Origin: Bryoerythrophyllum caledonicum
Taxonomy: Eukaryota; Streptophyta; Bryopsida; Pottiales; Pottiaceae
Reading direction: 5' to 3'
Assembly (NCBI GenBank): GCA_963971425.1
Contig: OZ020522.1
Span: 4,314,168 to 4,378,167, forward strand
Length of the DNA stretch: 64,000 nt
Part shown: in pieces, positions 20,294 through 60,600 of the stretch
How positions within the stretch are numbered: the stretch's first letter is position 1
Layout of the letters: every line of letters starts with the position of its first letter
Notes under the pieces: model-generated
Seen by the model: the letters and a program-made list of their open reading frames with translations, nothing else
The model's database searches: none
What the model was told of the DNA's origin: nothing
Made by a program: the position numbers and the translations under genes

Positions 20294-20378
20294 TACACTG
20301 AAATTTATGTTTAGTGTAGTGGCAAAAATAGTGTACTTACCCTAGTACACTATTTGTAAAGAAGTTGTCAATTAGTGT

Positions 20379-20688
20379 CCCGCTCACTAGGTTCAATCCG
20401 TGTTCGGGCTGTCAGGCCCTGTTTTGGTCTTCTTTCCGTCTCCCGCGGCCGTCCCCCAAAAGCATCTTTCCGCCCCCTTGTCCGCGTCTTTTCCTTCCAG
20501 CGCCTCTCGCCCTTTCCGAGATCCCTGCCCGATCCATCCCGATAAGCGCCTGCCCGCCCCTGCTATCGGCGCAGACCCCGAGACCCGATAACACCATATC
20601 GGCTATCGGCCTAGGAACGGATCCACGCCCACGTGTACCGGTGGGACCCATCCACCCCCCTCCGCCGCCGATAAGCCAGTATCATCCG
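20379..20688 (+). repeat. MULE left terminal inverted repeat, 310 bp
   Basis: Starts CCCGCTCACTAGGTTC and ends at AGTATCATCCG. It is the reverse complement of 30431-30740, with equal length and no difference seen. It contains several CCGATA/TATCGG motifs. The 79-codon frames inside both repeats are mirror copies and not genes. Confidence 0.93.
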
Positions 20689-20822
20689 GGCAATCCGAGG
20701 AGCGGAGATGATGTAGATGATTTATGTTGGACTCGGCTTGCAACGTCTCCCCAGCCCGTGTTCATTGCGGCGCCATTTGTTGTGCTCGCGGGAGAGTAGA
20801 GTGTCACCGATAGGCAGCGGGA

Positions 20823-23800: not shown

Positions 23801-23930
23801 GCAGATTGCTCATTCCCTCCCTTGTAACCGAGACGGGCTCGGAATGAGGCTTCAAAGGCTGCGCGATTTCTTAGATTCGCGAGGTTACCGACATTCCTCG
23901 GCTCGTGCTCCCGAGAACCTTACGCAGTAA
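20823..23930 (+). CDS. mudrA: MURA-type transposase with SWIM zinc finger
   Basis: Cuts and joins the ends of the MULE. Four exons read by phase: 20823-21364, 21455-22199, 22306-22505 and 22664-23930, giving 917 residues, all introns GT-AG. An N-terminal Cys/His region (WRC near 181, then GCQC and KDH) resembles the WRKY-GCM1/FLYWCH-like DNA-binding fold of MULE transposases. The catalytic triad is IAIDGTF (D420), FVLDDADNE (D486) and AAIESFHSN (E619). LFLCLWHVRRAW is the usual helix between the second D and the E. A C-terminal SWIM finger has C726, C728, C737 and H739. The third intron is inferred because the usual frame is only recovered by joining 22505 to 22664. The frame is intact. Confidence 0.92.
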
Positions 23931-23965
23931 GCATAGCCAATAGGCTATATTCTTAATTTAGACAT

Positions 23966-23989
23966 CCGATAACGCCACCGCGTTATCGG
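23966..23989. terminator. Perfect 10-bp hairpin between the convergent MULE genes
   Basis: CCGATAACGC, a 4-base loop, then GCGTTATCGG, starting 36 bases after the transposase stop. It lies in the ~410-bp gap between the two convergent genes. It could mark a 3' end or be a protein-binding site. The same TATCGG motif recurs across the element. The function is inferred from position only. Confidence 0.35.
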
Positions 23990-24339
23990 GTTGCCATATT
24001 GTGGTCCATCGTCCTCTCCTACATATGTTCATCTTATCGGAAGAGGTATACTGCGCTCGCTCCTATAGTTCTTATCGCGGGAGGTATAGTCCTCGATAGG
24101 ATACAAACAGGATTGGTAGGACAAATACACATTATTATGCATAGATAAACGATAGCCAGGATAGATAGACAACGGGAGATCATTTCATTACCAACACATT
24201 CTTGTACATTTTGGAATGTACAGTACAGATTTGTCCGGTATTTGATCGGAAAATGAATGTATACACACCTATCGTCCTACCGCTAACTCTGAGCCTAACC
24301 TATCGTACATGTAAAATACAAGAAGAAGAAGCTCTGAGC

Positions 24340-27300
24340 CTACTTCTTCTTCGGCTTTCTCTTCGTGCCCGGCTTCTTCACCCCTTCCCTAGGTGCTTCG
24401 CCGAGAGGCTGCCTCACACGACATCCCTTGAGCTGCAATGCTATCGTCTTCTCGATACCCAAGTCGATAGCAGCCCTCGTCGTATTCCTCCTTCCTGTTT
24501 CCGGGCTCACCTCCATGGTTTCATCATCGCCCTCCATGTTCTCGCTGGCGAGAACATATGCCTGTACAGGACTCCAGACATCAACTGTAGGCTTAGAAAA
24601 CCCATTGGGCGGGGAAATAAGCTCGAGATAGAACGCCTGAACTAACCACAGTCGCGCTTTTGACCCCGCCCAGTCCTGCCATTTGTGGTTCTGCAGCAAA
24701 TCCGGATCGGCGGATGGACTACTCCCACGTATGACGAGGTACTGCCAGAATGCCAAGCACGACACGTAACCGCACTCCCACGACAACGCTTGCTTTGGAA
24801 TCGGCAACCTCTTCACCTTCCGTCCTTGCCACTTCCTCCACATGGCCGACTTAGGCGAAACACCCCTCGCCATCGCCCACGCCATGTGCAACACAAACGC
24901 GAAGTTGCCCGCTCGCTCGTCCCGGTGCATATTCAACGTGTCGAATTGTATCGTCTGGGAGTCCTCCACGACAAATATGCTCCAGTGACCCATGTTCTGG
25001 TAGGGCACCACTAGTGTGTCCTCGAGTCGAGATACGGTACGCACGGTACGATAGATGTAATACACGACTTCGTCCCATGTGCTTGCGTCATCGATTTTCG
25101 ACTGCATGCAATTAGACATCCAGTTGTGAGTCAACGCGTAGTGCCGTCGTACCTCCGGGTCAGCGCGGTATACGATATGCCGGAGTAGGAAGTCCATAAG
25201 AGAGCCGTCGAGCTCTCGCCCGTCCTGGAGAATGCAGCCCCAGTCGGCACGATTGAGCGATATGGTCACAGCTTTCCTCTTGTCCGGGCCGAAGACGAGC
25301 ATATCGTCTACAATGTCATCGAGTTTCTTGCCAGGGGGTCTGCGGGACAGAAATGACACTGTGAGTTAGCAAACGATACGTGCATTTGTACAGTACAAGT
25401 CATATCGTATTAAGGGGTTATCGTTCACAAGATATCGAACACGAACTATACTTGAGGTCGCAAATCGGAAAGTATCGGACGATAAGAGTAAAAAAACTAA
25501 ACCTGTGCTTCAGAAGCTCGACGATAAGACCCAAACTTTGCTCGACCAGCTCCGGAGAGTGACTTGCAGCCTCGAAGCATAGAGTGGGCTCTCTATTCCA
25601 GTCGGGCATCCGAGACGTGCAGATGTGGCGGTTCTCGGGCAACATACACTGATACGGGGGTGGGTTATCAGGGACGCGTTTCGCGAGCGATTCCAGAAGT
25701 CCTGGATGATACACAATGGACTCCCTCTTCTCCATCACGCCCTCGATGACTTGCGCTAGAGTTCGCTCTCTCCATTGTTCCGATAACCCGTCCTACAAAA
25801 ACACAGAATCTATAGTCGTTAGGGGCGTAGTCTCTATGACACGGATTCGAGGGGAAGCAAAGAACATAGCATACATAGGCGGATATCGCGATAGGTTAAA
25901 AGGACGGTTTTGTCTATTTATTCCCTCGGCAACCTTCACGGCTCGTTGTGTTCTTACCCCGTGTAATGATCGTAAGTCCTCGGGGGTTCCGTTCCCGTGT
26001 AGGTTTAGCAACCCATCTCCAAGCGTGAGGTCAGCCATTACCTGGGTCCATCCGAGAGGCGTTTCGTCCCCGTCGTCCGCCACATGGGGCTCCGATGGCG
26101 TTGCCGCTCCTTCTTCAGGTACGGTAGGCTCCGAAGGCATTGCCGCTTCTTCTTCAGACACAATAGGCTCCGATGGCTGCGAATCTCTCTCAACGATAGG
26201 CGGATCGTTGTTTTCCTTAGCCCGACATTCCTTATCGGCTTCGATAGGAACCGGGACCATGTAAGAAGGGACGCCTGACATATCGCCTGCAGATGTAGTG
26301 CGCCGGTCAGCTAGGTGACCAGCTTCCTGGCTGACCTCGGCGTTGTCAACTGTGACATCGGCTTCTCGCTCCTCGCTCCCACGGCTTAAATTCGGGACGA
26401 CATCGAACCCGGGGTCGGGGATACTGGCATCTCCTTCCTTACCCAAGATCTCCTCCCTCTCGGAGTCAACGTCCATCGTCTCCTCCCCCTCCCGAAATGC
26501 AGCTTCTGAAGGACTCTCATCTTTCTTATCGGCGACGTCCTCCACCACGATATGCGGCGGGAGAGAGACCTTCTCTACGTGCTCCCTTCTTTGAGCAGGT
26601 TCTCGTCGCTCTCCGAGCCCAATCGGAGTTCCCTCGTGGACGGCGATAAGAGCCTGGGCACCCTCGATGTCTCGAGTATTCCGAGAAGAACCCTCCGTGA
26701 CGTCTTCGGATCGAATACGTGACACCGATGCTGCGCATTGCTTCCGGCAGAAACTTGTTATCGCCGTGAGACAAGCCTGCATCTCGGGCCCGTCATGGAC
26801 TCCGATAAGGTGACCACCTACCATATCTGTACACACGTGACATTGGATAAACATAAGTACTCACACACGATATGCATAAAATTGTAAGTGAAGATCGTAA
26901 ACGATGTGGCGGACGGCTTACTCGATCCACTGCCGACATATAGTAAGTCGATGTCTTCCCGAAACAGGCATTGCTCTTCGAGAAGCTCCCATGGCATGTA
27001 CGACGCCAGATCGGTTTGACACCACCTCAGCTCAAACTGGACCTCGTGTCTACAGGCCATGTCGATGACTGTCCGCGCTCTTACGTGATGGGTGAACTGT
27101 ATTAGAGCTCTGCCGCATTCACGCGCTTCGTTAACGAGCATCTGATGGAGTTCTACCACCTCCGGATCTTCATCCGCGTACTCCACATGCCCGAAGAGAA
27201 ACCTCCCTAGCTTCTCGTACAGAAATAATGCGCCATCCCAAGGCGAATGTGCGTTATCGGAGTTCCTATCAATCATCAGCGGCGTCATTCGCGCGTGGGG

Positions 27301-29524
27301 ATGGCACATATTTGTTCCACTGCAATTCAAACAACAGTCAGCCGATAACTCATAAGCGATACCTCCAATCTAGTAGTTGTTAAAACGACAAAAAACTCTG
27401 AACTGGAACGAGAGTCCGATAGCATTGAAGCCCTAAAATAGCTGGTAAAAGAGATGACGATAATAGAGGGGGGACAAACCGGTTACTGAAACCGTTGGCG
27501 ATAAACCAGCACTTCAGGAGCCTCGCTTCTCGTGGAGGACGCATGGGATCGATACTTGCTGCCTTCAAGATCGATAACACCACTCTCGCCTCTTCGGAGT
27601 TGTGTTTCCATGGCATGGGCGGCAAGAGCTCGCGAATGAAGGGGTTATCGGCGCAGAAGTGGAACAGGAGATTGTAGTCCCACACCAAGGCCTCCCATTC
27701 CACAGACCGCTCCTTGTCGTAGGAGGCAATTCGGGAGACCAGTTCCGCCTCGCGGTCTTGTTGGATCCTGGCGGCCCTAGCTCTTCCCGAGACCTCCCAT
27801 TCTTCCGCCTCCTTCTCTCGTTGAAGAAATAGCCACGTCTCCCTCACAGTAGCCACCCACCGAATTCTCAGCTTCTCGCTCCACGGAAACTGCGCCAGCT
27901 CCACGATAGGCTTGCACTCATTTAGCTCGTCGGTGGAGATGGCTTGCGTGCAGAACGCTTGCCCGATAGCAGACGTAAAACGCCACTGCCCTTGCGCCAC
28001 AACGTCCTGCATCATCTGAAGTAGATGATTCTCGGACGATATGCTGCGACGCTCCTCTTCAGACAGCAAACCATTGTTCATGAGAATCCACAAAGGGGTT
28101 CGGGTTCGCCTCACTGGAGGTATGTCGGTTTGGATGGACGCCGCGTACTTTTCGTCCACGTCGAGACGAATGCGCTCTATTTCGCGAATGCGCATTTCCT
28201 CCAATTCCCGCGCCCTGGCTTCTCTGTCCGGGTTACTGTACCTCGGCCTAGCGCCCCCCGCGAGGTATTGTCTGATACTTAACCTCTCGTCGGAGATATC
28301 GGCGAGAGTCGCGCTAGGTCCGTCGTCCCTCCGCACCACCTTGTACTGTTCGCGCACTTCCGCTGCATTCCCTACGGAATATGGATCGTCTTCTCCATGG
28401 AAATTCGGGGCAGTGATGCTGTCAAAGGGACACATCGCACGCGCCTTCAAGTTCGGTTTGGGGCTCCTCGCACGCCGAGAGGGTGTTGCAACCTCCTGGC
28501 CTATCGTAGGCCTCTTCTCGACGTTCCCGGAGCTGCATTGCCCACCCTTCGCCGTCGCTGGATGCCTGACCGGGATCGCTTCATTGGGACGCGCATCGGT
28601 ATCTTCGCGCGCCTCAGAGGATTCGCTATCCTCTCGCGACCCGTCCTGGTCCTCCTCATCCGATGTGGTCGTATCGGACGGGGGCTGTGCATGCACTGCT
28701 CTCGATGCCCGAGAGGACGATGCACCTCGCTTTATCGAGTGCATGTCCCGACCACGAGCACTTGATGTAACAATCGCCTGGCTTATCGGGGCGCTGGAAG
28801 CGACATTCCCGGAAACGAAGTGCCCACTTTCCGATGTCGCTGGAACGCTGTAGGCGACGATGTCCATGGGCCTAGCATCGACATCTTCGTGGTCCTCAGA
28901 CCTATCGCCATCCTCGCCCGCCTCGTACTGATCGTCGTCATCCGATGACGACTCCTCGTCATCGGCTTCCAATCGGACTGGTCTCGATGCCCGAGAGGTC
29001 GACGCACCTCGCTTTCTTGCGCGAGTGTCCCGAGATCCAGTCCCGGCCGCTCTCTTCCCGCCGCCTCTCGGCTTCCTGCTAGACCTATCGAGTGGGACGA
29101 TATGCTGGAACGCAGCAATGACGTCGTCCACTGTTGTACAATCCACCATCTTCTGTATGAACTGAGGTTGATTCTTGATGTCGAGGTTCGGATAAGCAGG
29201 CATTTTCCTGTTAGGTCGCCCAGGGCACTTCGCGTGATTCAGGTGCAGATTGATCCTATGTTTCTGCCCGACCTCCTTGCAATACGGACAGTGAAAAGCT
29301 TTCTTCTCCGGAGACAGTTCACTGGTCTTGTAAATCTGCGAGTCTGGCCCGTGCATCGCCAGAATCATTCTCCTGGCCGTCAGAGGATGCCAGCTGTCTT
29401 GCCAGTAATGCCCCTCCACCTTGAAAACTTGCTCTATCCTCTTCAGCCTATCGTTGTAAATCGGGTGGGTGGGAACAGCCTCCACCCCTCTCGGTAACTC
29501 ACTGACGCAGTTGCATCTCGGCAT
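24340..29524 (-). CDS. MULE-borne zinc-finger protein with C-terminal Ulp1-like (C48) protease
   Basis: Five exons on the minus strand: 29524-27480, 27319-26922, 26826-25958, 25792-25503 and 25339-24340. All junctions are GT-AG and in phase, giving one frame of 1533 residues. The N-terminus has a Cys/His cluster (C79, C82, H94, H97, C100), a likely zinc finger. Residues ~165-350 hold two copies of a ~90-residue Ser/Asp/Glu-rich module starting KRGAS-SRASR. Exon 3 has three PSEP-V-EE repeats. The last exon is an Ulp1-like cysteine peptidase: GHWSIFVV (H1319), QFDTLNMH (D1334), Q1384 and WECGYVSC (C1390), the order expected for SUMO-protease relatives. It ends in a Lys/Arg-rich tail. Ulp1 domains are known passengers of plant MULEs, with unproven roles. 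Two separate genes are possible, but unbroken phase favours one. Confidence 0.85.
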
Positions 29525-30430
29525 TTTTGCAGACCTACAGCATACAGAGCAAATCAGTCATGAAACTTATTATGAAACGTGGTACATGAGAAGCTATAAA
29601 CCCTAAACCAAAACCGAGAAGTTTAAGCCTTTTAGTATTCCAAACGGTATCTCCCTTGGTACTCCTATCAGCGCGGCACTTGGAATTCCAATCGTTATCT
29701 CCTTTCGTACTCCAATCGACACAGTATATTCTATCATGAACTCCACGCTCACGCTCACTGACAACGTAAGAATAGAAAATCACATGAGTGCCTTATCGTA
29801 TACGGCTAAACAAATCCGACAGATCGCTAAACCCCAAAATCCTTATCGTCTACAGATAAACTTCAGTATGATTCCAGAAAAACTAGTACTGAGAATATCG
29901 AGTTCCAGAAACCCTAACTATCAACTTCCTGCGTCCACTTCCCAACTCGATATGAGCCTATAGGTTTACAAACTGAATGAGAGCGGGAGGGTTTGCATGC
30001 TTACCAGAAGGCGTCGTCGGAGATGGAAGATGTCAAGGAATTCTCTGAGATCGAGCTCGCAAAAGAACAGCGCAAACGATAGTAGGGAGTACAAACAAAC
30101 GGGTTTGCAAATGAGAGAGAAAACGAGCCAACAGCAGCCTTCGCCATTTGAACAACGCCGCCGGAACATTTGAAATTGATGGCGACAATGATGAGACTCT
30201 AATTCTCCTATCGAGACTACCAGCCGCCAACCACAGAACTATAGCTATCAAAACCATCACACGCTTTACCATGAGAGCACATCGCCTCGACCAAATCAAG
30301 AGACCGCCCTGTCATTCAATCCGCGATAGCTCCATCGAAACCCTATGCAAAAAATGATTGCTTTCAGATTCAATCGATTTGGATTCCGGCTGATTGCAAC
30401 CCTCCTGCGATGGATGATTGTGACAGGTAA

Positions 30431-30740
30431 CGGATGATACTGGCTTATCGGCGGCGGAGGGGGGTGGATGGGTCCCACCGGTACACGTGGGCGTGGATCC
30501 GTTCCTAGGCCGATAGCCGATATGGTGTTATCGGGTCTCGGGGTCTGCGCCGATAGCAGGGGCGGGCAGGCGCTTATCGGGATGGATCGGGCAGGGATCT
30601 CGGAAAGGGCGAGAGGCGCTGGAAGGAAAAGACGCGGACAAGGGGGCGGAAAGATGCTTTTGGGGGACGGCCGCGGGAGACGGAAAGAAGACCAAAACAG
30701 GGCCTGACAGCCCGAACACGGATTGAACCTAGTGAGCGGG
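30431..30740 (-). repeat. MULE right terminal inverted repeat, 310 bp
   Basis: Reverse complement of 20379-20688. It is followed directly by AATTAGTGT, the right copy of the 9-bp target duplication. The region 29525-30430, between the repeat and the zinc-finger gene start, is non-coding and presumably holds that gene's promoter. Confidence 0.93.
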
Positions 30741-30768
30741 AATTAGTGTTAGCTACCTATGTCATTAA

Positions 30769-33679: not shown

Positions 33680-35175
33680 ATCTCTACATTTGTAGAAAAG
33701 AAGAAGGCTTGATCACAAAGGAGCAAGATGGAGCCGCGATGAGAGCTCTCGCCGCTGTGGTAGCACAACAGAATCGATTGAGCTTGTGCCAATGCACATC
33801 GTTGCCTCAGTTAACAAAATCTGCTCAATCTACTAACGGTTCTGCTCTCCTGAACATCAACTTTGTTAGAAATCAGCCATTGCCCTTTTGAGCTGAATTA
33901 GCGTTTGACTCGACACTCGACAAGAAATCCTCGACACTCCCTCTTCATACAAACCGCAAGCAAGCATAAACGAACATTTCTCAACCATCAAAAAAAGGAA
34001 ACATCACATCCAAGAATCACATAAGCCAAAGAGAAGGTCATGCACTGAAGACCGGACCCCATTCTCCAAAGTCTAGTGAATGATGCGTTATCAGATTCTC
34101 ATTCAATCAGTGTCACAAACACAAAAAATAAGCACTCTGCAACATCGTCCATGTATGTGTGCATTCAGAGGCCTCCTCCGGAGGCCCGAACTAGAACTCT
34201 CCATCATCGGATATATCATCGCTACTGTCCTAACTCTACTCTCCACCACAGCTCAGCAAAGTAAACAGCAGGAAATCGCTCCCCTTCGCTCTAGTCGTGC
34301 CTCAGGGCAGACACAACTGTGCGCAGCTCATCCCATCTTGCAAGAATCATGGCCCTGCAGCTCTGCCCCGCAATGTCAAGCAGGCCGGAAATTATGTGAA
34401 AAATTGAACAAACATCAGCCATGTCCGCGAAACGCATCTCCTCCTCAGTTCCTGCTGCTCCACGAGAACGAGCGCTGCGATAGCGAGGAGCGCGCGCCGT
34501 GAACCATCGACGTGATCGAGCTCAGCACGGACCGCGCTATGGCGGCCTTCACCTGCCCGCGCCGGGGCCTCCTGTGAGCAGTCGCGGCCATGGCCCGGGA
34601 CAACAACGCTCCTTGGTTGACTGCCATCGCAACTGATGCGCAACCGAAACTCAAACACGCAACTGGAAACAACTCAAAAGTGCAAAACGAATTCGCAATT
34701 GAAGAGCGCAGATCACAATTGAGCGACACGAGATTGCAGCTGGAATTCTGTGATGAATACCGCCACCGCTGCCTTTATAGTTCACGCTCCCCTTGACGAG
34801 CATGGATGAACAAAGCACGTGGGCTTTAAGATGGATGGATGAGCGTGGATGAGGAGCTGGGATTCCAGAAGGGCCGTTGTTGAGTTTGGGCATTGTTGAT
34901 GGATGGATGGATGAGGAGGAGGAGGCGTGATGGGGTTGGGCTTGGGCAGCAAGCCTGAGTGATGATTGTGGCATGGATGACATGGACTGACTTGGACCTA
35001 CCTACTAACGGAGAAGGTGGGGGCGAAGGGGCGGGGGGCGGGGGTGGCGGTATTTCGGACTTGGAACTTGGGACCATGATGTCAGGGATGATTCAATTTC
35101 TGATTCTTCTGTCTGTGGCGCAGTTCTAAATTCGGTTGTGGGGAAGGGAGGGCAAAATTGTGTAGAATTGTTACC
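33680..35175 (-). repeat. Array unit 4: D module, 3' deletion
   Basis: TATA box at 34772-34780 (minus strand), ATG at 34627, 60-residue frame ending at 34445. The segment coding MPPSHDDEQV in other copies is missing at about 33940, where 'ctccctcttc' is joined directly to 'atacaaaccgcaagc'. The plus-strand 60-codon frame at 33709-33891 is identical in protein to unit 3. Confidence 0.6.
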
Positions 35176-37569: not shown

Positions 37570-39215
37570 CTACGTTTGTAGAAAAGAAGAAGGCTTGATC
37601 ACGAAGGAGCAAGATGGAGGCGTGATGAGAGCTCTCGCCGCTGTGGTAGCACAACAGAATCGATTGAGCTTGTGCCAATGGACATCGTCGCCTCAGTTAA
37701 CAAAATCACCTCAATCTAGTGACGGTTCTGCTCTCCGAAACATCAACTTTGTTCGAGATCAGCCATTGCCCTTTTGAGCTGAATTAGGGTTTAACTCGAC
37801 ACTCGACAAAAAATCCTCGACACTCCCTCTTCTCTGCTGCGCAACAGCACACTCTATACAATTGAGAGTGATCAACTTACCATCGAGGACAATGAAGAGC
37901 ACCTGCTCATCGTCATGAGAAGGTGGCATGGCGAATGCGATCTTGAAAAATCTGCACATTGCATATACAAACCGCAAGCAAGCATAAACGAACATTTCTC
38001 AAACCAGCACAAAAGGAAACATCACATCCAAGAATCACATAAGCCAAAGAGAAGGTCAAGCACTGAAGATCGGACCCCATTCTCCAAAGTGTAGTGAATG
38101 ATGCGTTATCAGATTCTCATTCAATCAGTGTCACAAACACAAAAAATAAGCACTCTGCAACATCGTCCATGTATGTGTGCATTCAGAGGCCTCCTCCGGA
38201 GGCCCGAACTAGAACTCTCCATCATCGGATATATCATCGCTACTGTCCTAACTCTACTCTCCACCACAGCTCAGCATAGTAAACAGCAGGAAATCGCTCC
38301 CCTTCGCTCTAATCGTGCCTCAGGGCAGGCACAACTGCGCGCAGCTCATCCCAACTTGCAAGAATCATGGCCCTGCAGCTCTGCCCCGCAATGTCAAGCA
38401 GGCCGGAAACTATGTGAAAAATTGAACGAACATCAGCCATGTCCGCGAAACGCATCTCCTCCTCAGTTCCTGCTGCTCCACGAGAACGAGCGCTGCGATA
38501 GCGAGGAGCGCGCGCCGTGCACCATCGACGTGATCGAGCTCAGCACGGACCGCGCTATGGCGGCCTTCACCTGCCCGCGCCGGGGCCTCCTGTGAGCAGT
38601 CGCGGCCATGGCCCGGGACAACAACGCTCCTTGGTTGACTGCCATCGCAACTGATGCGCAACCGAAACTCAAACACGCAACTGGAAACAACTCAAAAGTG
38701 CAAAACGAATTCGCAATTGAAGAGCGCAGATCACAATTGAGCGACACGAGATTGCAGCTGGAATTCTGTGATGAATACCGCCACCACTGCCTTTATAGTT
38801 CAAGCTCCCCTTGACGAGCACGGATGAACAAAGCACGTGGGCATTTTAGATGGATGGATGAGCGTGGATGAGGAGCTGGGATTCCAGAAGGGCCGTTGTT
38901 GAGTTTGGGCATTGTTGATGGATGGATGGATGAGGAGGAGGAGGCGTGATGGGGTTGGGCTTGGGCAGCAAGCCTGAGTGATGATTGTGGCATGGATGAC
39001 ATGGACTGACTTGGACCTACCTACTAACGGAGAAGGTGGGGGCGAAGGGGCGGGGGGCGGGGGTGGGGGTATTTCTGATTTGGTACTTGGGACAATGATG
39101 CCGGGGATCTTTCTGTTTCTGATCCTGGGTCTTCAATTTTGTCTTTGGCCTAGTTTTAAATTCGGTTGTGGGGAGGGGAGGGTAAAATAGTGTAGAATTG
39201 TTGCCTTAGGATTTT
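37570..39215 (-). repeat. Array unit 5: D module
   Basis: TATA box at 38790-38798 (minus strand), ATG at 38645, 60-residue frame to 38463, then the MRFADMADV frame. The MPPSHDDEQV segment is open on the minus strand at 37995-37759 and ends in SVEDFLSSVELNPN. The plus-strand 60-codon frame at 37595-37777 is kept but with several residue changes. This is one of the fullest copies. Confidence 0.6.
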
Positions 39216-43274: not shown

Positions 43275-44435
43275 AAGAATCACATAAGCCAAAGAGAAGG
43301 TCATACACTGAAGATCGGACCCCATTCTCGACGAAAGTGTAGAAAATGATGCGTAATCAGATTCTCATTCAATCAGTGTCACAAACACGAAACATAAGCA
43401 CTCTGCAACATCGTCCCCGCACACACCTCATCACCAGCCTCATCCAGCAACGAGGCCGCCATGGCAGTGGACACCGCGACCATGTGCGCATCCAGAGGCC
43501 TCCTCCGGAGGCTCGAACTGGAACTCTCCATCATCGGATATATCATCGCTACTGTCCTAACTCTACTCTCCACCACAGCTCAGCATAGTAACGACAAGAA
43601 ATCGCTTCCCATCGCTCTAATAGTGCCTCAGGGAAGGCACAACTGCGCGCAGCTCATCCGGTCTCGCAAGAATCATGGCCCTGCAGCTCTGCTCCGCAAT
43701 GTCAAGCAGGCCGGAAACTATGTGAAAAATTGAACGAACATCAGCCATGTCCGCGAAACGCATCTCCGCCTCAGTTCCTGCTGCTCCACGAGAACGAGCG
43801 CTGCGATAGCGAGGAGCGTGCGCCGTGCACCATCGACGTGAGCGAGCACAGCACGGACCGCGCTATGGCGGCCTTCACCTGCCCGCGCCGGGGCCTCCTG
43901 TGAGCAGTCGCGGCCATGGCCCGGGACAACAACGCTCCGTGGTTGACTGCCATCGCAACTGATGCGCAACCGAAAGTGAAACACGCAGCTGGAAACAACA
44001 CAAATGCAAAAACGAATTCGCAGTTGAAGAGCGCAGATCACAATTGAGCGACACGAGATTGCAGCTGGAATTCTGTGAAGAATACCGCCACCACTGCCTT
44101 TATAGTTCAAGCTCCCCTTGATGAGCATGGATGAATGAAGCACGTGGGCTTTTAGATGGATGGATGAGCGTGGTTGAGGAGCTGGGATTCTAGAGGGGCT
44201 TGGGCAGCAAGCTGTTGTGACATGGATGACGTGGTTTGACGTGGACCCACCTACCGAGAAGGTGGGGGCGAAGGGGCGGGAGTGGTGGTGGCGGTATTTC
44301 TGACTTGGTACTTGGGACCATGATGTCATGGATCATTCTCTCCGATTCTTGGTTCTTCCATTCAGTATATAGCCCTGTTTTAAATTCGGTTTTGGGGAAG
44401 GGAGGGGAAGGGAGGGTAATACAGTGTAGAATTGT
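43275..44435 (-). repeat. Array unit 6: D module, truncated 3' side
   Basis: TATA box at 44097-44105 (minus strand), ATG at 43953, 60-residue frame to 43771. The 3' MPPSHDDEQV segment is absent: the module starts at 'gaatcacataagccaaagag'. It faces unit 7 across a 240-bp spacer, so the two promoters are divergent. Confidence 0.6.
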
Positions 44436-44719: not shown

Positions 44720-46050
44720 TCGAGATCCAAGAATCCGACAAAGAAATTCCAGAAATACCGCCACCCAAGTCCTTGCTCCTCCACCCCCACCTTCTCGGTG
44801 GGTGGGTCCAAGCCAATCCACGTCATCCATGCCACAATGCAAGCTTGCTGCCCAAGCCCACTGCAACACCATCACCCCAACTCCTCATCCACGCATCAAA
44901 AAGCCCAAACAAAGGCCCTTCTACAATCCCAGCTCCTCATCCACGCTCATCCATCCATCTAAAAGCCCACGTGCTTTGTTCATCCGTGCTCATCAAAGGG
45001 AGCTTGAACTATAAAGGCAGTGGTGGCGGTGTTCTTCACAGAATTCCAGCTGCAATCTCGTGTCGCTCAGTTGTGATCTGCGCTCTTCAATTGCGAATTT
45101 GTTCTGCATTTTGAGTTGTTTCCAGCTGCGTGTTTGAGTTTCGGTCGCGCATCAGTTGCGATGGCAGTCAACCGTGGAGCGTTGTTGTCCCGGGCCATGG
45201 CCGCGACTGCTCACAGGAGGCCCCGGCGCGGGCAGGTGAAGGCCGCCATAGCGCGGTCCGTGCTGAGCTCGCTCACGTCGATGGTGCACGGCGCACGCTC
45301 GTCGCTATCGCAGCGCTCGTTCTCGTGGAGCAGCAGGACCTGAGGAGGAGATGAGTTTCGCGGACAAGGCTGATGTTCGTTCAATTTTTCACATAGTTTC
45401 CGGCCTGCTTGATATTGTGCAGCAGAGCTGCGAGGCCATGATTCTTGCGAGACCGGATGAGCTGCGCGCAGTTGTGCCTTCCCTGAAGCACGATTAGAGC
45501 GAAGGGGAGCGATTTCCTGTTGTTTACTATGCTGAGCTGTGGTGGAGAGTAGAGTTAGGACAGTAGCGATGATATATCCGATGATGGAGAGTTCTAGTTC
45601 GGGCCTCTGGAGGAGGCCTCTGAATGCGCACATACGGGGACGATGTTGCAGAGTGCTTATTTTTTGTGTTTGTGACACTGATTGAATGAGAATCTGATAA
45701 CGCATCATTCACTAGACTTTGGAGAATGGGGTCCGATCTTCAGTGCATGACCTTCTCTTTGGCTTATGTGATTCTTGGATGTGATGTTTCCTTTTGTGCT
45801 GGTGTGAGAAATGTTCGTTTATTCTTGCTTGCGGTTTGTATATGCAATTTGCAGATTTTGCAAGATCGCATTCGCCATGCCACCTTCTCATGACGATGAG
45901 CAGGTGTTCTTCACTGTCCTCAAGTGTAAGTTAGTCACTCTCAATTTTCTAGAGTTTGCTGTTGCGCAGCAGAGAAGAGGGAGTGTTGAGGATTTTTTTG
46001 ACATTCATTTTCACGGTTCTTGTTGTATCATGCGTCAATTAGTATAGCAT
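44720..46050 (+). repeat. Array unit 7: D module, inverted
   Basis: The only copy reading left to right. Order: C-rich block, 'gctcatccatccatc', 'aaaagcccacgtgctttg', TATA box 45009-45017, ATG 45161, 60-residue frame to 45343, then a 48-residue frame MSFADKADVRSIF (45351-45497), and the MPPSHDDEQV frame (45811-46047). All elements of the other copies are here, in mirror image. Confidence 0.65.
45161..45343 (+). CDS. Short basic frame of the D module (representative copy), unknown
   Basis: A 60-residue Arg/Ser-rich frame starting MAVNRGALLSRAMAATAHR. The same start, length and stop are kept in all seven D modules, with few residue changes. It lies about 145 bp downstream of a TATA box, as a first exon might. 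A second frame (MSFADKADVRSIFHIVS..., 45351-45497) starts 7 bases after the stop. I do not recognise either protein. It could be a real small gene, the first exon of a longer spliced gene, or a chance frame in a young repeat. The Arg/Ser content and GC-rich codons make a chance frame quite possible. Confidence 0.3.
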   Translation: MAVNRGALLSRAMAATAHRRPRRGQVKAAIARSVLSSLTSMVHGARSSLSQRSFSWSSRT

Positions 46051-49157: not shown

Positions 49158-49290
49158 AAACTGGGCCACAGACAGAATTAAAGACCGAGAATCAGGAACA
49201 GTGGCATCATGGTCCCAAGTACCAAGTCAGAAATACCGCCACCCCCGCCCCCACCTTCTCGGTTGGTAGGTAGGTCCGTTCGTTCGTTCA
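49158..49290 (+). promoter_or_regulatory. Upstream block shared with the D modules, before the TIR gene
   Basis: 'actgggccacagacagaatt', 'atcatggtcccaagtacc', 'agtcagaaataccgccaccc' and 'ggttggtaggtaggtcc' occur in the same order as at the 5' end of each D module (compare the minus strand of 17140-17300). Beyond 49290 the sequences part. It is thus a shared upstream segment, probably part of a promoter, carried to an unrelated gene or inherited from a common source. Confidence 0.6.
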
Positions 49291-49909
49291 GAAATTGCGT
49301 TGCCTGCCTGCTCCATCCTGCAATAACAGCTGCAAAGCTGCTTTCGATTTTCTCTGCTCCTTCAACTCTCTGCTCTTCTCCTTCAACCTTGCTTTTGTTG
49401 CTCTTGTAGCTTTTTGGCTGATGTGAATATAGCCAAGATCATAACACACATTTGCATTGTGACGCCTACTTCGACTGTTTATTACACCAATCCATTTTGA
49501 CACTTCTTTCTTACCTGGGCTTCTGGTTGGTTGTATTGACTCACGGATACGGAGTAGAAACTTACCGACAACTTGAATGATTCTAACAGAAAAGGATAGT
49601 CACTACACATATTGCTGGCCTCTTTCTTTCAAATGATTGTTCACTGTCACGACTTAGGTGATAAGAGAAGCATTCAGTGCGGAACGAAATGCTTGTTAAG
49701 GGCAATTTCATGGAGTAACTGTTCAATGCTAGTACTGCTTTTGAACAAGTAGCGACAAGTTGTGCAAAGATAGCGGACATCTGTAGACTTGCATTTGTAT
49801 TCATTGACAGGTTTTCTTAGACAAAACCCTCACACTAGTTTGCACTTGAGTTGAGTGAGGTACTGGATTGGTGTGAAGGAGACAGGGGTTTGTTTGGAGA
49901 ATATTCACC

Positions 49910-51679
49910 ATGTGGTTGAATCTGTGCGGCCTTCAAGGTTACTTCTTCAGGTGAGAATGACTGCCATTTTAAAGCTACGTTGTATATCAAGGCTTCAGAT
50001 GTCGTAGGGTTTCTATTTTTGGTCTCCTGATTTTAACCCCTAAAGTCGACTGAAGCCAGATTCTAGTTGATTAGGGTTTGGTCAGCCTCTGATTTACTAC
50101 GTTTAGATTGTATGAAGTTGAAATCTTTTGGTAGGTTGTATAGTTTTTCAATACCTTTTTTGAAATGACCATTCATGCTTCAAAATGCCTCATACTTTAG
50201 GAGGTATTCACAGTCAAAGTCTGAAAACACTATAAGGGCATGCTGACATCTGCCCTAAACTGCAGTATATGCTGCCCAAAATCAATTAGATCGTAGAAAC
50301 TTTGAATTTTTACCAAAAATTGAGATTTTACTTTTTTTTCAAGTTTTGTTTTTGAACATGTAGAAGACGTACCAATGCATAATCTCACCATGCGGATTTC
50401 CAATCCAATAATTTTTCACATGCCTTTTTTATTGTCAAAGACCGGCCTTTGTATTTGAATTTCAGCATACCTCCATGTGAATTATCAAGCATTTCTTTAA
50501 GTTTTATAGGTCCTATGAGGGTAAAAATTGCATAGACATGTTACTAACTCAACTAGGAACAATAATGTGAAGAGCCTCGGTTCGTGTTTACTTCCAGAAA
50601 TGGTCTTTTTGGCTGCTTACCCTTTTTACATCAAGGGATTTTTAATTTTTTTTCTTCAACTTTGAACGTTATGATCTCACAATTGGTGAGGAATTTGAAT
50701 CTAAGATTTATCACACATACACACATACAAGTTAGGTATTAGATCCTTGAAAGTTTGTCAAAAACTGAAAATTTCACCTTGCATTGAAAGAGGGCAGTTT
50801 TGAGACTTTTTGGCAGTTTTGAGGCTAATTGACTTTAGAGGTTAAATTAGTGTATGCAGGATGCACTAAGCGTGTTATCGACAAGAAGATGGTTTTTAAA
50901 CTGTGTCTTCTTTTTGCAGAACGGAAGAGAGTGAGCATGCCAGTGCTCACTTTCAACCGGAAGAGAGTCAGAATGCTAGCAATGGTTCCTCGGTGCCAGC
51001 TAGCTATGATGTTTTTCTGGCGCACAGCAGCCATCAGAAGGATTTTGTGGAGCAGTTGTACGAGGACATGAAACGGCATGGGATCAACGTGTTTTTCGAC
51101 AAACACAGTTTGGTAAAGGGTGAAGAATTCCCAGAGCATATATTCAACGCAGCCTCCACTACCACAATAGCAGTTCCGGTGCTGTCAGAAGAATTTTTCA
51201 TAGCAAGTTCATGGCCCATGGCAGAGATCATCACTTCTGTGAGAGCAAAGAAGCCGACAATTTACCCCCTGTTTTACATGATATCTGCTGAGACGGTCAA
51301 AAATGTTGAGAAAGTGACGGAGTGGTCTGCGCAGTGGGAGATTTGGGGAATGGAGAGGCACAACATGGGTCTTGAACATTGGAAGGAGACGTTAAAGAAG
51401 ATCGGGATAACGTATGGTGAAGAAAAGAATGTATTCATGAGTGAAGTGGAGTACCGGAAGAATGTTGTAGCTTGCATCAGAAAAATGTTGAAAACCAATA
51501 ATAAGGAAACGATTGTCTCAGGACGAGTAGTTACCAGAGGCGAGACATCGAGGTCGACATCAAATTCTGAAGGGGCGACATCAGAAGTGGCGCAACCATC
51601 GAATGTGGTGTGCACTCTTATTTCCTGCATTGGACTCTTAACTTTACTCTTTCAGGAGGAAACCTTGAAATTTATTTGA
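49910..51679 (+). CDS. TIR-domain protein (two exons)
   Basis: TIR domains act as NAD-cleaving or scaffold modules in plant immunity. Exon 1, 49910-49950, encodes MWLNLCGLQGYFFR. Exon 2, 50920-51679, continues in phase across a GT-AG intron of 969 bp, giving 266 residues. The TIR domain runs from about residue 42 to 215: YDVFLAHSS (strand A), VFFDKHSLVKGEEF (BB loop), and SSWPMAEI with E116 at the position of the catalytic glutamate of NADase TIRs. The usual plant WCL-EL motif is altered to WPMAEI. No NB-ARC or LRR follows. After residue 215 comes a Ser/Thr-rich stretch and a hydrophobic tail, which may be intron read-through. A glycine-rich zinc-ribbon frame starts 216 bp downstream and could be a further exon. 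The start at 49910 is inferred; no other upstream exon is seen. Confidence 0.85.
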
Positions 51680-51895
51680 TGACCTTGTTCATAGCATTAT
51701 GACAGTGCATTATGAGTCAAATATAGTCAGACGCAAGGGCATCTCCTCATTCATATGCTTGTATGTTTAGAATTGACATCATTCTTTCAAAATTCTTCCA
51801 AACGTGTATATTTGTGAAAGTTTTGGTCTATGTTGTATACTTCCTTTGTGAGTGTGCTTCGAGATCGCTGTTGATCGTGACTGTTGCTCTTGAAG

Positions 51896-52999
51896 GTGGC
51901 AAGCTCTGGATCTGCTGGACGACAATTTCGAGAGAGGTTTGCAGCGGGAGTGCCGATTGGACTTGGAGTTGGGGTGGGTCAAGAGGTTGTTGAGTGGATG
52001 GTGCATATCCTTGAGGGGGGAGGGGGTGGAGGTGGGGATGGGGATGGGGATGGGGGTGGGGGTGGGGGTGGGGATGGGGGTGGGGGTGGGGATGGGGGTG
52101 GGGGTGGGGATGGAGGTGGGGGTGGGGATGGAGGTGAAGGTGGTGGCGGTGATGGTGGTGGTGGTGGGGGTAATGGTGGTGGTAGTGGGGGTAATGGTGG
52201 TGGTGGTGGTGGGGATGGTGGGGATGGTGGCGGGGATGGTGGCGGGGATGGTGGCGGGAGTGGTGGAGTTATGAGCAATTTAATGTGCTCAAAATGCGGT
52301 AAACCTTTACAAGGTCCATATTGTACAAATTGTACAAAACCTTCTACTCAACCAAGTCGTGTTGGTGGAGGTAATGGCAATGGCGGTAGTAGTGGTGGTG
52401 TTTGGGGAGGTGGCGGTGGCAGTACTGGTGGCTCAAGCGGTGGTAGAGGTGGGGGTGGGAGTGGGGGTGGAGGTGGAGGTGGAGGTGGGAGTGGGGATGG
52501 AGGTGGTGGTGGTGGGGGTATAGATATGAGCAATTTAATGTGCTCAAAGTGCGGTAAACCTTTACAAGGACAGATTTGTACAAATTGCACGAAAACTTTT
52601 GTTCGACCGAGTCAAAGTGGTGGAGGCAGTGCGGGTGGCAGTCGCAACATTGGTGGCTGGAGCTATGGTGGGGGTGGGGGTGGAAGTAGCGGTGGCAGTG
52701 GAGGTGGCAGTCGCAACATTGGTGGCTGGAGCTACGGTGGGGGTGGGGGTGGGGGTGGAAGTAGCGGTGGCAGTGGAGGTGGCAGTCGCATCATTGGTGG
52801 CTGGAGCTACGGTGGGGGTGGGGGTGGAAGTAGTGGTGGCAGTGGAGGTGGAGGTGGAGGTGGAGGTGGAGGTGGAGGTGGAGGCGGTGGTGGAGGTGGC
52901 GGTGGGGGTGTAACCATGAGCAATGTAATGTGCTCATTTTGCGGTGCACCTTTACAAGGGCCAATTTGCATGAATTGCATGATGAAACCTTCCAATTGA
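51896..52999 (+). CDS. Glycine-rich frame with three zinc-ribbon modules
   Basis: An open frame of about 367 residues. It follows a frame stop at 51878 and has a possible splice acceptor ending at 51895, so it may be an exon. If it is its own gene, the first ATG is 51998. It starts with a short helix-like segment (VGQEVVEWMVHIL), then long Gly-rich linkers with Asp, Ser and Asn. Three near-identical modules begin near 52271, 52526 and 52916: MSN-(L/V)-MCS-x-CG-x-PLQG-x-x-C-x-NC, four Cys each in two CxxC knuckles. This fits a small zinc ribbon. Splicing from the TIR exon at phase 0 (for example after 51612) would keep frame, but no strong donor is seen. The Gly linkers are coded by GGT/GGG simple repeats. 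Confidence 0.6.
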   Translation: MASSGSAGRQFRERFAAGVPIGLGVGVGQEVVEWMVHILEGGGGGGGDGDGDGGGGGGGDGGGGGDGGGGGDGGGGGDGGEGGGGDGGGGGGNGGGSGGNGGGGGGDGGDGGGDGGGDGGGSGGVMSNLMCSKCGKPLQGPYCTNCTKPSTQPSRVGGGNGNGGSSGGVWGGGGGSTGGSSGGRGGGGSGGGGGGGGGSGDGGGGGGGIDMSNLMCSKCGKPLQGQICTNCTKTFVRPSQSGGGSAGGSRNIGGWSYGGGGGGSSGGSGGGSRNIGGWSYGGGGGGGGSSGGSGGGSRIIGGWSYGGGGGGSSGGSGGGGGGGGGGGGGGGGGGGGGGVTMSNVMCSFCGAPLQGPICMNCMMKPSN

Positions 53000-53712
53000 C
53001 CAAATCACCCAAACTCGTGTATGGGTGGTGGTCATCATGTATATCATGCACACATAGGGGCCAAAAGAATGTCCTATGTAAAACTTGACAACATACTTGT
53101 CAAATTCCCTTTTAAAGCAATTTTTTTAAAAACTTCAAAATTTTGTGTACTAAAAAGTGATAAATATTGAAGTGTTTAAGTGCGTGCAAATGCAATATTT
53201 GAAAATTCTATACGCATTTACTAACATTTTTAACATAATTTTTAGTGATTTATAAGCAAGTGAATAAGTGTAATAGATTTTTAAATCATTCATTTGATTG
53301 TCAAAATGTGACCGATGATGTCCTTATGCATGTTGGTAAAATGATAGTTATGGTCTTCTAACCATAGGCTTAGCTAAAATGAGCACCCAACAATTCGAAC
53401 ATTTTAGTGCGTCCTATCATAATGTGTCATGAACCCTACTTATAGTTCTGACTTGCTCATCTTGAAGGGAATTTCTACTTTTAATGTATTGTATTAGAAT
53501 AAGTCTAAAGAACTTTTAGTGAAGAGAATGTCATTTACACAAAGTGGCAGCATGGCAGTTACTTTTGTTAGCAATTTAAACAAAAAATATTACTTATCAC
53601 CAAGTGAACTATCTTTTGAAAAAGCTTCAAAGTTTTTCTTTGAATGTCAGATATCACCATTCTTACCATCTTGCATAAAATAGAACTATTTTCTATGAAG
53701 AATTTGTTTGAG
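53000..53712. other. Spacer, no gene seen
   Basis: AT-rich, with no coding frame, motif or repeat that I recognise. It ends at the TTAA (53713-53716) that starts the piggyBac element. Confidence 0.5.
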
Positions 53713-55592: not shown

Positions 55593-55762
55593 GAGTACTA
55601 GGGGGTTCTATTAGGGAGTACGAGTATCGGGGGGACCTCTGATAGATCCGGAAATCGGGCTAGAGGGATTACAAAGAGAGTTAGGGGGAGGGCAAGGATT
55701 ACAAAGAGTTAGGGGGATTACAAAGAGAGTTAGGGATTAGGGGAAGGGTTGCGGAGGACTCG

Positions 55763-57682
55763 ATGAAAATTGAGGGGGCTTGGGGGGGATTGAACTCTCC
55801 ATTGGAAGGAGCCATACTTCCAACGGGGAGAGATATATTGAGTAATTGGAACGAGAATCATGACGAAGACATTAGTATCATCGATGTGAATATTCCAAAT
55901 TATGAGGATATTATTGATATTGAGGGCGAAGGATGCGATGATAATGGAATGCATGACCGGACAATTTCACTAGATTTTCTGGACATTTTACAACAAAATA
56001 TTGATGAGAAAGGAGTAAACATTCCAATTTTGCATGATGAGAGTGATGATATTCATGAGAGTTCAAGTGAGGACAATGATACAGTTCCAAGCGAAGCGCA
56101 CCAAGAAAGCATAAAACATCTCTACCGAGAGTCAACATGGAATGACGAATTCTCGACTTATTCTCCAATGCCAATGGATTTTGACGATGTTACGAGGACT
56201 ACAAAATCATGGCGTTTCTTTCTATCATTCATGCAATTGTTTCATTTATTTTGGCCTGAAGTTTTGCTACGAAAAATAGTTATTGAAAGAAACCGTTATG
56301 CTCGAAGTACAAATTCTTTGGGGAGATGTATTGGCGGTCGCAATTGGAAGGACATTGACATCCAATGTTTAAAAGTATTTTTGGCCATATATTTGTATAT
56401 GGGTATGAAAAGACAACCAAATATGCGAAGTTATTGGTATTGCAAAGATTCGGTTTTCCATTGTTCTACTATATCAAACCTTATGACAAGAACTCGGTTT
56501 CTCTCTATTATGAGTTGTTTACATGTTACCGATGGAAACACGTATGTGAGAAATAGAGAGGTTTTTGGATATGACAAGTTGGGCCAAGTTCGTTGGCTTG
56601 TATCTTCTATACGGGATAACTGTAAAAAAGTTTGGCATTTAGGTAAATTTTGCACGGTCGATGAAATGATGGTTAGATATAAGGGTATATATTGTCCAGT
56701 ACGACAATATATGCCGCAGAAACCGCAAAAATGGGGCATTAATATGTGGTGTCTAGCATATTCTGTTACAAAGTTTGTGTGGAATTTTGAGGTGTATAGC
56801 GGTAAAACACCAGTTGCAATCAATCTTCCACCAACTACACGCAGAGAGCCACAATTAGCTCACAAAGTTGTTTTAGACTTGGTTCAAGATATCGGACAAA
56901 GAGGCCGTGTTTTGGTGATGGATAATTATTTTACAAGTATTGGGCTATTTTTGAGTTTATTAGAACGTGGCATTTATGCGACGGGTACGATTAGATCTAA
57001 TAGAGTTGGCATTCCCATCATATGTAAGAACACTAGGGCATTTGCTAAAGAACGACAAGGAAATTTTGCTTGGAGAATGCACATATCACGGAAAATCGCA
57101 TGCATTATATGAAAAGACCAAAAACTGGTTATTCTGCTTTCCACACATGCATTGCCTCGCGTAACACCCGGTTTACCGGACATTACAATCCCTCGACGGA
57201 ACGGAGCCATCCGTGAAAATATCACAACATCTCCAATTCATTTGGAATATACAACACACATGAGAGGTGTCGACGTCGCTGATCAACTAAGGGCGTCGTA
57301 TGCCACTCAAGATCGGACGCACAAGTGGTGGCATAGGATCTTTTTTTTCTTGCTAGATATGACCTTGGTAAATATGTACATTATTTATGTAGAAAAATGC
57401 AAATCTCACTTTCCACCTAGAGATCCACTAACACATTTACAATTTATGGAGGAAATGTGTTAGGCATTGACCAAGAATTGGCAACGTAGAGACATTCAAG
57501 ATATAGTTCCAATGCGCGATCGAGGACCTGTATGTTATCCGGTAACGTCGGACAATCGTCGTCGAGTATGTGTTATTTGCAAGTCGCGGCCTTGTACTTA
57601 TTGTCCAACATGTGGAAATAGGTTCATGTGTTTTAACAAGGGCTGTTTTCGATTATGGCACGAATGCCTCAACCATAGATAG
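55763..57682 (+). pseudogene. piggyBac transposase with two in-frame stops
   Basis: One reading frame of 639 codons plus a final stop, interrupted by TGA at codon 450 (57110-57112) and TAG at codon 567 (57461-57463). No frameshift is seen. The N-terminal ~150 residues are acidic. The core has family motifs FCTVDEMMVRYKG (D300), RQYMPQKPQKWG, VLVMDNYFTSI (D387) and MRGVDVADQL (D504, D507), the DDD set of piggyBac. The C-terminus is the Cys-rich zinc-binding domain (CVICK, CPTCG, CFNKGC, LWHECLNH). The TGA falls where relatives have Trp before the Lys-Asp pair, so a TGG-to-TGA change is likely. The third catalytic Asp lies after it, so the truncated product should be inactive unless the stops are read through or spliced out. 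Confidence 0.9.
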
Positions 57683-60600
57683 ACAAATGTCTAGAAGGAT
57701 AATTAATAGTATAGGTGAATTCATGTATTGTTTGATACATAAACAAATATGTTTTTTTTGTGTTTTTACTATCTATGCCTAACAAATGTGCGTTTATCTA
57801 TATCTACCAAATTTTAGTTTATCTACGTTTAACAAATGTGAATTAATGAATGTCTAATAAATTTAAGTTTATTTATGTCTAACAAAATTGAGTGTATTTA
57901 TGAGTAACAAGTATGAGCTCATCTATGTCTAAAACATATGAATTAATCAACGTCTAATATATATGATTTCTCTATGTCTAACAAATATTTATGTCTTACA
58001 TATATGTTTCATCAGTACCCTTCATTTGTAATTTTTTTTTGTTAATTTGTATTCTTAATTCACATGTGTTATGCCATATCATGTATAATGTTTTCAAACA
58101 CCTTTTATGCTATAATATGATAATCAATACAGTCAATAAGAAAGAATTTGGAACATATTGTTTTTTCCACCCTTGCTTGAAATGTATGAATAATGTTTGA
58201 CTTGGATGTCTGAATAATGTCTGAATTTTACATTCTCGAAACATATGAAAGTCTTTGATTTAAACATTATTTGAAAAATTAACATTTGATTTTGAAACGT
58301 GCTTTCATATTGTCAAATAAGTTCACATATTTCTTACTACATCATCATAGATGTGTAGAAGAAGAATATATGGTTCTATTTTGAAACCATTAAAAACCTA
58401 AGGTATTTTAGAATCACTACACCATTGATGCAAAAACGAGCAGATGAATTTTTTAAGAATGTAACCGTAGAATTTTTCTCAGAACTTCAATAAGTAGATG
58501 TGGTAAAAAAAAAATTCATCATACAAATTGAAAAATGAAAACCGTGAAAGTAAATAGCATGGTACTAAAGAAACTTTTGTTCAACAGAGGTTATAATCAT
58601 AAAATAATGTCTTGATCCTTTAGGGGTCCATTTTGCAAGACACAGACAATAAACTTTCATTATAAAAGATGGAAAAAAAAATTGATTCATAAAAATGATC
58701 TACCAATTAAATTTCGTAATTTCGCGTAAGAAATAAACAAAATACTAAACTACTTTGTAAAGTGAATCCAAAAAGGAGGGCTAGCAAGGGAAGAAAATGG
58801 TAAGTAGTAAGGTCCAAGTAATAAAGGTCTGGCACAAACACTAAAGCACAGGCCGCCAATTCAACCCCCAAGGTAGTCTCGGGCCAGCCTAGTGGCCATG
58901 GTAATTCAAAAACGTATGTCGCGTACCATTATATAGTGGCACATTCTTCACATTGCAAGGCTTATGGGATATTTGCACCAGAAGTGCCAAAACAGCCACC
59001 ACCAAAATGTGACTGTAATTTTATAATTAAAAGTAAAAACTCGGATTTTTAACCGTAAGATCTTACGAAGATTGAATATATGAAGTCACAGAAAAGGTTT
59101 GGCAGCAATGCACCGCACGGATTGAAAGATTACAGCGTTTAAAGTCAACAAAATTGACATTTTCTTCCTTGCGTAGAGTGGATCAGCAGACTTCAACTTC
59201 ACTTGAGGTGTTATTTTGCACTACACAAGGTCTAATTATTTTATGATCTTGTTTAGCATGATTTTAGTTTCCTACAATCCAATTTTTAGATGTAAAGAAG
59301 GGGTGTAGCATATTCAAAATGATTGTACAAGGAGTGGAGGTAAAAAATTGACATTTCACTTTTCAATATTAATTGTACTAAATTTGAAACCATTAATCAA
59401 TCCTAAATAATTAAAAAGGCACCTCTACGAAGCTTTTATCAGAGACACCATAGTCGATCAAATTCATAGATTTTATTTGATTTCTTAAATTTTAGGAGTG
59501 TGCCAAAAGGCTATATGCATTTCTAACCAACACTTGGGCTCTTAGAAGATCAAAGACTGTATTCATAATTCATTCCCTGTTCACTCTCTTTGTAGATGTT
59601 GCAATAATCTAAATATTTGATGTTTAGTGTAAGATACTTAGTGATTTAAAATTGCAACAAGTTTTACTTTTGATGCAGTTATAAGTTAGTCTTTTCAAAA
59701 AAAATTATTTCTAGTAGGAGAAGGCATGATAATGTGATTTACAAATTGGAATTCTAAATCTAATTGGTAAAGATATAGTTCCTTTGCCAACAATGTTCAC
59801 ATTTTATATATTTGTAGTCATTGCAATATTTTTTACATATCCTAAGTTACTCCATCACTTGTGCCTTAGATTGTACAATGCTTCAACATTGGTCCATAAT
59901 ATCTATGTGTAGCAAAAAATATATTCCAAGCATTGGAGTTCAGACTAATTTTATTATGAATTCTCAACGTCTCAAACATAATGGCTAACTCCTATGTATT
60001 GCACAAGTATTGCCTGTATATTAAATGGATATGACCTTTGCATTTCATAGGTTCAACCTTAGAGACAAAATACATATATTTCAAAAAACTTGGAGAGCCC
60101 AAGTTTTGGATTATTTATGTACAAACCAGAGCACTGCATGTAGTATTGTAATGGACATAATTTTGACTGTACGGATCAAAAGATAATTGTGGTCAAAGTG
60201 TACATTTTTGTACCCCGCACGTACACTTGAGCCTTTACAAGTTAATTAACGAAGTAGAAATTCCTAAAAAATTGCTTGGGCCTTTAGGGGTTAGGAGTCT
60301 ATTGTAAAAGTCCCACACATTTAGAGGAATATCTAATGTATTGATCTTCACTTTATGATATATCGCTTCTAAAAAGGATTTGTTTTTCTACGAGTAGAAC
60401 GCTTTGATAATATTCAGTTGTATAGATTTAATTATTGTACCTATCATATGTTTAAGAAGTTGCAAAATGATCATGTACAGTACATATCTCATTTGTCGTA
60501 CTTCAATCCAAGGGTGTATATCTTGCTAACCATAAATATAATTTTCCTTTGACGTCAACACTATCTTACAAACATTTTAACAAAGCTTGCCTTTGGCCTT

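Follow-up and report, generated by a model that had tools for sequence, protein, structure and literature searches.

We identified, on the forward strand of the window (the whole 64,000-nucleotide stretch of Bryoerythrophyllum caledonicum DNA that was analysed), a gene for a TIR domain followed on the same strand by an open frame (51881-52999) for a glycine-rich tail with three four-cysteine modules. In our judgement it is somewhat likelier that a single gene encodes one TIR-Gly-zinc-ribbon protein than that two genes lie side by side. The predicted gene would comprise three exons (49910-49950, 50920-51607 and 51896-52999) and encode a protein of 610 residues, in which a plant-type TIR domain would lead into a Ser/Thr-rich linker and a short hydrophobic segment, and then into a long Gly/Ser-rich low-complexity tail carrying three modules of zinc-binding type (Table 1).

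Table 1. Features of the predicted TIR-tail locus, with the copies of the repeat family found in the same window.
Feature	Positions	Strand	Description
Predicted exon 1, TIR gene	49910-49950	+	ATG; MWLNLCGLQGYFF plus 2 bases of the next codon
Predicted intron 1	49951-50919	+	969 bp, 36% T; 3' end TTTTTGCAG
Predicted exon 2	50920-51607	+	N-terminal linker, TIR domain, Ser/Thr-rich linker; if unspliced, runs to a stop at 51677-51679
Conserved TIR glutamate codon (SSWPMAE)	51224-51226	+	From alignments with L6, AT1G72930 and two bacterial TIRs
Candidate intron 2	51608-51895	+	288 bp, phase 0; donor GTG/GTGTGC, acceptor CTCTTGAAG/GTGGC
Rival 48-bp intron	51608-51655	+	3' end TTACTCTTTCAG; product would be a 250-residue TIR-only protein
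Possible mini first exon of a stand-alone tail gene	51755-51760	+	ATGCTT; donor CTT/GTATGT
Tail head	51896-52027	+	VASSGSAGRQFRERFAAGVPIGLGVGVGQEVVEWMVHILEG...; short hydrophobic, glycine-spaced segment
Gly-rich region	52028-52999	+	Three SR(N/I)IGGWSYG repeats and three four-Cys modules; stop at 52997-52999
Four-Cys module 1	52286-52333	+	CX2CX8CX2C, CSKCGKPLQGPYCTNC; DZR 20.5 bits alone
Four-Cys module 2	52541-52588	+	CX2CX8CX2C, CSKCGKPLQGQICTNC; DZR 21.9 bits alone
Four-Cys module 3	52931-52978	+	CX2CX8CX2C, CSFCGAPLQGPICMNC; DZR 16.6 bits alone
Repeat family copies	11898-12607, 16321-17051, 19307-20048, 34155-34895, 38173-38914, 43482-44199, 44901-45461		

The TIR assignment rests on profile and structure matches. 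The frame at 50900-51679 matches Pfam TIR_2 (E 6.9e-14, 52.8 bits, cut-off 28) and, over profile positions 2-168 of 179, Pfam TIR (E 6.2e-12, 46.1 bits, cut-off 21.3). Flax L6 is its best relative of solved structure (E 5e-13), followed by a second flax protein (4.1e-11) and Arabidopsis AT1G72930 (E 7.4e-10); these plant TIRs are the first three of the 18 distinct solved chains found at E <=0.01. Identity over the aligned parts is 28% with L6 and 33% with AT1G72930, and the first loop, FLSFRG in both of those proteins, is FLAHSS here. We read the sequence as that of a divergent plant TIR. As the original prediction held, the domain is intact, has a glutamate at the usual catalytic position and is accompanied by neither NB-ARC nor LRR. 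When the domain is aligned with the corresponding parts of L6 and AT1G72930, 22 columns are invariant, the glutamate among them, and two bacterial TIRs also keep it at the NADase catalytic position. Pfam listed neither NB-ARC nor LRR for the TIR frame or the tail frame (E <=1), or for the fused prediction (E <=0.01); with neither domain matched after the TIR, the protein does not belong with the TIR-NBARC-LRR class. Family membership together with the glutamate leads us to expect that the TIR part cleaves NAD+ as an enzyme of immune signalling.

Bacterial anti-phage TIR proteins (retron-TIR, PDC-S66, ThsB) have the TIR domain in common with the protein described here. The models for two of them matched in the TIR part only: NCBIfam retron-TIR (E 4e-15, 55.6 bits, far from the equivalog cut-off of 600) and PADLOC PDC-S66 (E 6.3e-17). 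A bacterial origin of the domain, which these matches might suggest, seems less likely to us, since plant TIRs are its best relatives of solved structure and the C-terminal WKETLKKIG aligns with WKDALKKVG of L6. In contig collections of viruses and prokaryotes, with no plant genomes, no relatives were found among viral contigs (queried with a three-TIR alignment as well as with each of the two frames) or, with the TIR alone, among prokaryotic genome contigs; the three-TIR alignment recovered two bacterial TIR proteins from the latter, among 81 candidate stretches. Within the window, tblastn of both frames (E <1) returned only self-matches and the tail's own modules, and Rfam gave nothing at gathering scores.

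The 5' part of the gene model is well defined. Splice sites were scored from approximate plant frequencies and ranked against every GT or AG in the window. The donor of exon 1 (CAG/GTGAGA) scores 9.0 and the acceptor of intron 1 scores 6.2, and each is in the top 0.3% of its class (3571 GTs and 3626 AGs), in agreement with the start at 49910 that had been proposed. Exons 1 and 2 join in phase 2 with an open frame, and the product begins MWLNLCGLQGYFFRTEES... and continues into the TIR domain.

The TIR and tail frames lie together in a 4434-bp island (49278-53711) that is free of dispersed in-window repeats. The window has a GC content of 42%, and dispersed repeats cover 43% of it (counting repeats found within the window itself and excluding matches within 1.5 kb). 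A short way 5' of the TIR gene, 49155-49277 matches the end of a repeat family of at least seven copies, pairs of which are about 89-97% alike and one of which is inverted. Also present is a large DNA transposon (20378-30741) with two 311-bp inverted repeats that are 100% identical, enclosing long frames on both strands (20814-23930, +; 24340-29557, -). Six frames tested from this element gave no Pfam match above cut-off. With its ends placed one base inward, it is flanked by the 9-bp direct repeat AATTAGTGT (7 bp at the ends as given); this suggests a recent Mutator-like element, for which we take a 9-bp target duplication as the criterion. The frame at 55685-57112 (+) encodes a transposase of piggyBac type (Pfam DDE_Tnp_1_7, E 3e-59), a group that is rare in plants, and at 57770-57986 a 25-bp unit (TATCTATGTCTAACAAATGTGAGTT) is arrayed in 8.7 copies. 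Of the 13 frames initially run through Pfam, the one other that looks like a non-transposon gene is an alpha-amylase exon at 3146-3607 (+; Pfam 1.7e-07), which we take to be AMY2-like.

Whether the TIR and the tail belong to one gene turns on the junction 51607^51896. The predicted splice yields the 610 residues with zero internal stops, and both the TIR and the DZR matches of the product exceed their Pfam cut-offs. The anticipated phase-0 join was recovered, with a fused frame that stays open; such a phase match has a one-in-three expectation by chance. The donor at 51608 had been named as the weak point and is indeed weak: it scores 4.53, and about 13% of the window's GTs equal or better it, as do about 13% of AGs the acceptor at 51896 (TTGAAG/G, 0.83). 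T content jumps at 51604-51609, with the best position at 51604 (13.1 log units, a maximum reached by 0 of 500 base permutations of 51300-51895) and 51608 within 0.8 of it; the gain is 12.3 log units at 51608 versus 6.6 at 51680, after the TIR stop. T content is 0.23 in exon 2, 0.40 from 51608 to the stop, 0.38 after the stop, and 0.36 in intron 1. A change point at the donor fits an intron, and not a 3' UTR, beginning at 51608, although a T-rich UTR preceded by coding sequence for a hydrophobic C-terminus could equally explain it. Around the acceptor, T gives a weak change point (2.8 log units at 51892 and 2.1 at 51896), and the G change point falls at 51848 (9.4 log units, versus 6.7 at 51896).

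Possible, though less probable, is that a TIR gene ends at 51679 and a separate gene encodes the Gly-rich zinc-ribbon tail. The TIR product would then be either the unspliced read of 266 residues, whose hydrophobic C-terminal stretch (mean hydropathy 1.88 over 19 residues) might serve as a membrane anchor, or a protein of 250 residues after removal of the 48-bp intron. The tail would start either at ATGCTT (51755), with a 135-bp intron and a 369-residue product, or at the ATG at 51998. All four products are open. The acceptor of the 48-bp intron, at 51656, is strong (4.93, top 0.7% of window AGs), and the donor at 51761 (5.65, top 6.9%) outscores that at 51608. The claim that no ATG lies near the tail start holds in frame, where the frame opens 15 bp 5' of the acceptor at 51896 and the first ATG comes 102 bases past it, but not for the mini-exon, which could be joined in phase. 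Against two genes, an intron of 48 bp would be shorter than is usual in plants, and a stand-alone tail gene would leave 75 bp (start at 51755) or 318 bp (start at 51998) for promoter and leader. The T change point lies away from the TIR stop. The gap of 216 bp between the frames (51680-51895, the spacing originally given) contains no AATAAA, a weak point since AATAAA is also missing 3' of the tail (53000-53400) and the gap has one AATATA, at 51720. Two independent genes so close together would be unusual, given that both frames share one island in a window with so much dispersed repeat. The proposal of one transcript joining both frames is favoured by the T change point near the donor, by the common island and by a tail frame that opens so close to the acceptor and lacks an early in-frame ATG; it is weakened by the stronger rival acceptor, the unspliced read to 51679 with its hydrophobic end, and the possible stand-alone tail start.

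One gene need not mean one product. The one-gene reading includes, as a special case, a single locus with alternative 3' splice sites, in which use of 51656 would yield a TIR-only protein and use of 51896 a TIR with the tail; splicing would decide whether the tail is present. The donor at 51608 can pair with both acceptors (introns of 48 and 288 bp), and since both introns are multiples of three, neither form shifts frame before its stop. The shorter intron is perhaps too short for splicing, and we regard this arrangement as unlikely.

The tail itself, from 51896, reads VASSGSAGRQFRERFAAGVPIGLGVGVGQEVVEWMVHILEGG. Of its 367 residues, 183 are Gly and 39 Ser (together 60%), and its aromatic residues include five Trp and four Tyr. 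The openness of the frame is weak evidence of coding, because GGN repeats cannot form stops in it. Nor are in-frame repeat periods a strong sign: tandem-repeat periods divisible by three account for 10/10 rows in the tail, and 10 of 14 rows elsewhere in the window share this divisibility. A codon-position coding test, for which the training exon was small, gave no signal in the tail head or in any module. The modules are better evidence. All three of the four-Cys modules predicted in the Gly-rich tail have the form CX2CX8CX2C, with 12 of 12 cysteines kept and module starts 255 and 390 bases apart. They had been described as near-identical, which is accurate for modules 1 and 2 (2/22 amino-acid changes; four synonymous and two non-synonymous differences over 22 codons) and not for module 3, which differs from each at six of 22 residues (three synonymous and six non-synonymous differences from module 1, two and six from module 2). 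The whole tail frame matches Pfam DZR (E 1.3e-7, 32.1 bits, cut-off 27.3), as does the fused prediction (29.8 bits); single modules fall below this cut-off and cover about half of the profile. It is very improbable that the tail is an expanded G-rich simple repeat, untranslated and open by chance: even though openness means little here and the codon-position test gave no signal, such an expansion would have to include three spaced modules with every cysteine kept, differences between modules 1 and 2 that are mostly synonymous, and a DZR match above cut-off.

We predict that the modules bind zinc. In the double zinc ribbon (Pfam DZR, PF12773) the CX2C pairs are shared with the tail, whereas each module here is one four-Cys unit, and the three units stand far apart in Gly-rich linkers in place of the adjacent pair that defines the family. 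The tail head has no Pfam family reaching its cut-off. A search of the PDB with the tail gave 19 chains at E <=1 (best 4.3e-4), which we take to be matches to Gly-rich stretches; NCBIfam gave one match, below threshold, and PADLOC nothing at E <=0.01.

For the predicted one-gene product, the tail would keep several TIR copies together. Clustering may be promoted by the flexible Gly-rich region, in which W and Y residues recur, and the three modules may bind multivalently to a partner or to one another; we propose that the TIRs would therefore reach the density needed for activity. Passages of PMC10972746 describe how plant TIR proteins condense when they bind NAD+ and ATP and are activated in this way, and report that fusing the disordered region of FUS to a BB-loop mutant of the RPP1 TIR raised NADase and cell-death activity, to levels below wild type. 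A Gly/Ser-rich tail with aromatic residues and three zinc-type modules could act naturally as the FUS region does in that construct. The two have in common a TIR and a low-complexity region potentially driving clustering; that of RPP1 is a laboratory fusion with the FUS IDR, whereas the tail here is natural and predicted. Judging from the composition of the tail, its driving of TIR enzyme clustering would be the likeliest mode of action. That alternative splicing (51656/51896) additionally switches the protein between a free form and a self-assembling form is a long shot.

Plant TIR-only proteins (RBA1/AtTX1 and the conserved TIR-only group) likewise have a single TIR with the glutamate and lack an NB-ARC or LRR match. 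The TIR-only definition given in passages of PMC9806590 is a length under 400 residues with no other Pfam domain. An unfused product (266 or 250 residues) would likewise be under 400 residues, whereas a fused one, with 610 residues and a DZR match, would be outside the definition. In favour of two genes, the portions of PMC9153377 and PMC9806590 surveyed give a TIR alone, or with one short further domain, as the most frequent architecture of plant TIR proteins. Zinc-finger domains are described as integrated domains in NLRs in parts of PMC11218826 and PMC9153377, and the zinc-ribbon passages seen in PMC7159879 concern GTPase and kinase proteins. A TIR with a Gly-rich zinc-ribbon tail did not appear in the partial texts surveyed (among them PMC9806590, PMC11218826, PMC7075850 and PMC9153377). 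The architecture would be a moderate surprise, because sections of PMC9153377 report 53 TIR domain architectures in Arabidopsis alone.

If the two frames are not fused, the locus holds a TIR-only gene of the ordinary kind, with a Gly-rich gene next to it. What switches on TIR proteins that lack a receptor part is under active study, and condensation is one answer, given in the passages of PMC10972746. A TIR with a splice-switched clustering tail, if it exists, would be a natural counterpart of the laboratory FUS-TIR fusion. If the frames are fused, a natural TIR with a low-complexity multivalent tail would allow condensation to be tested within one protein.
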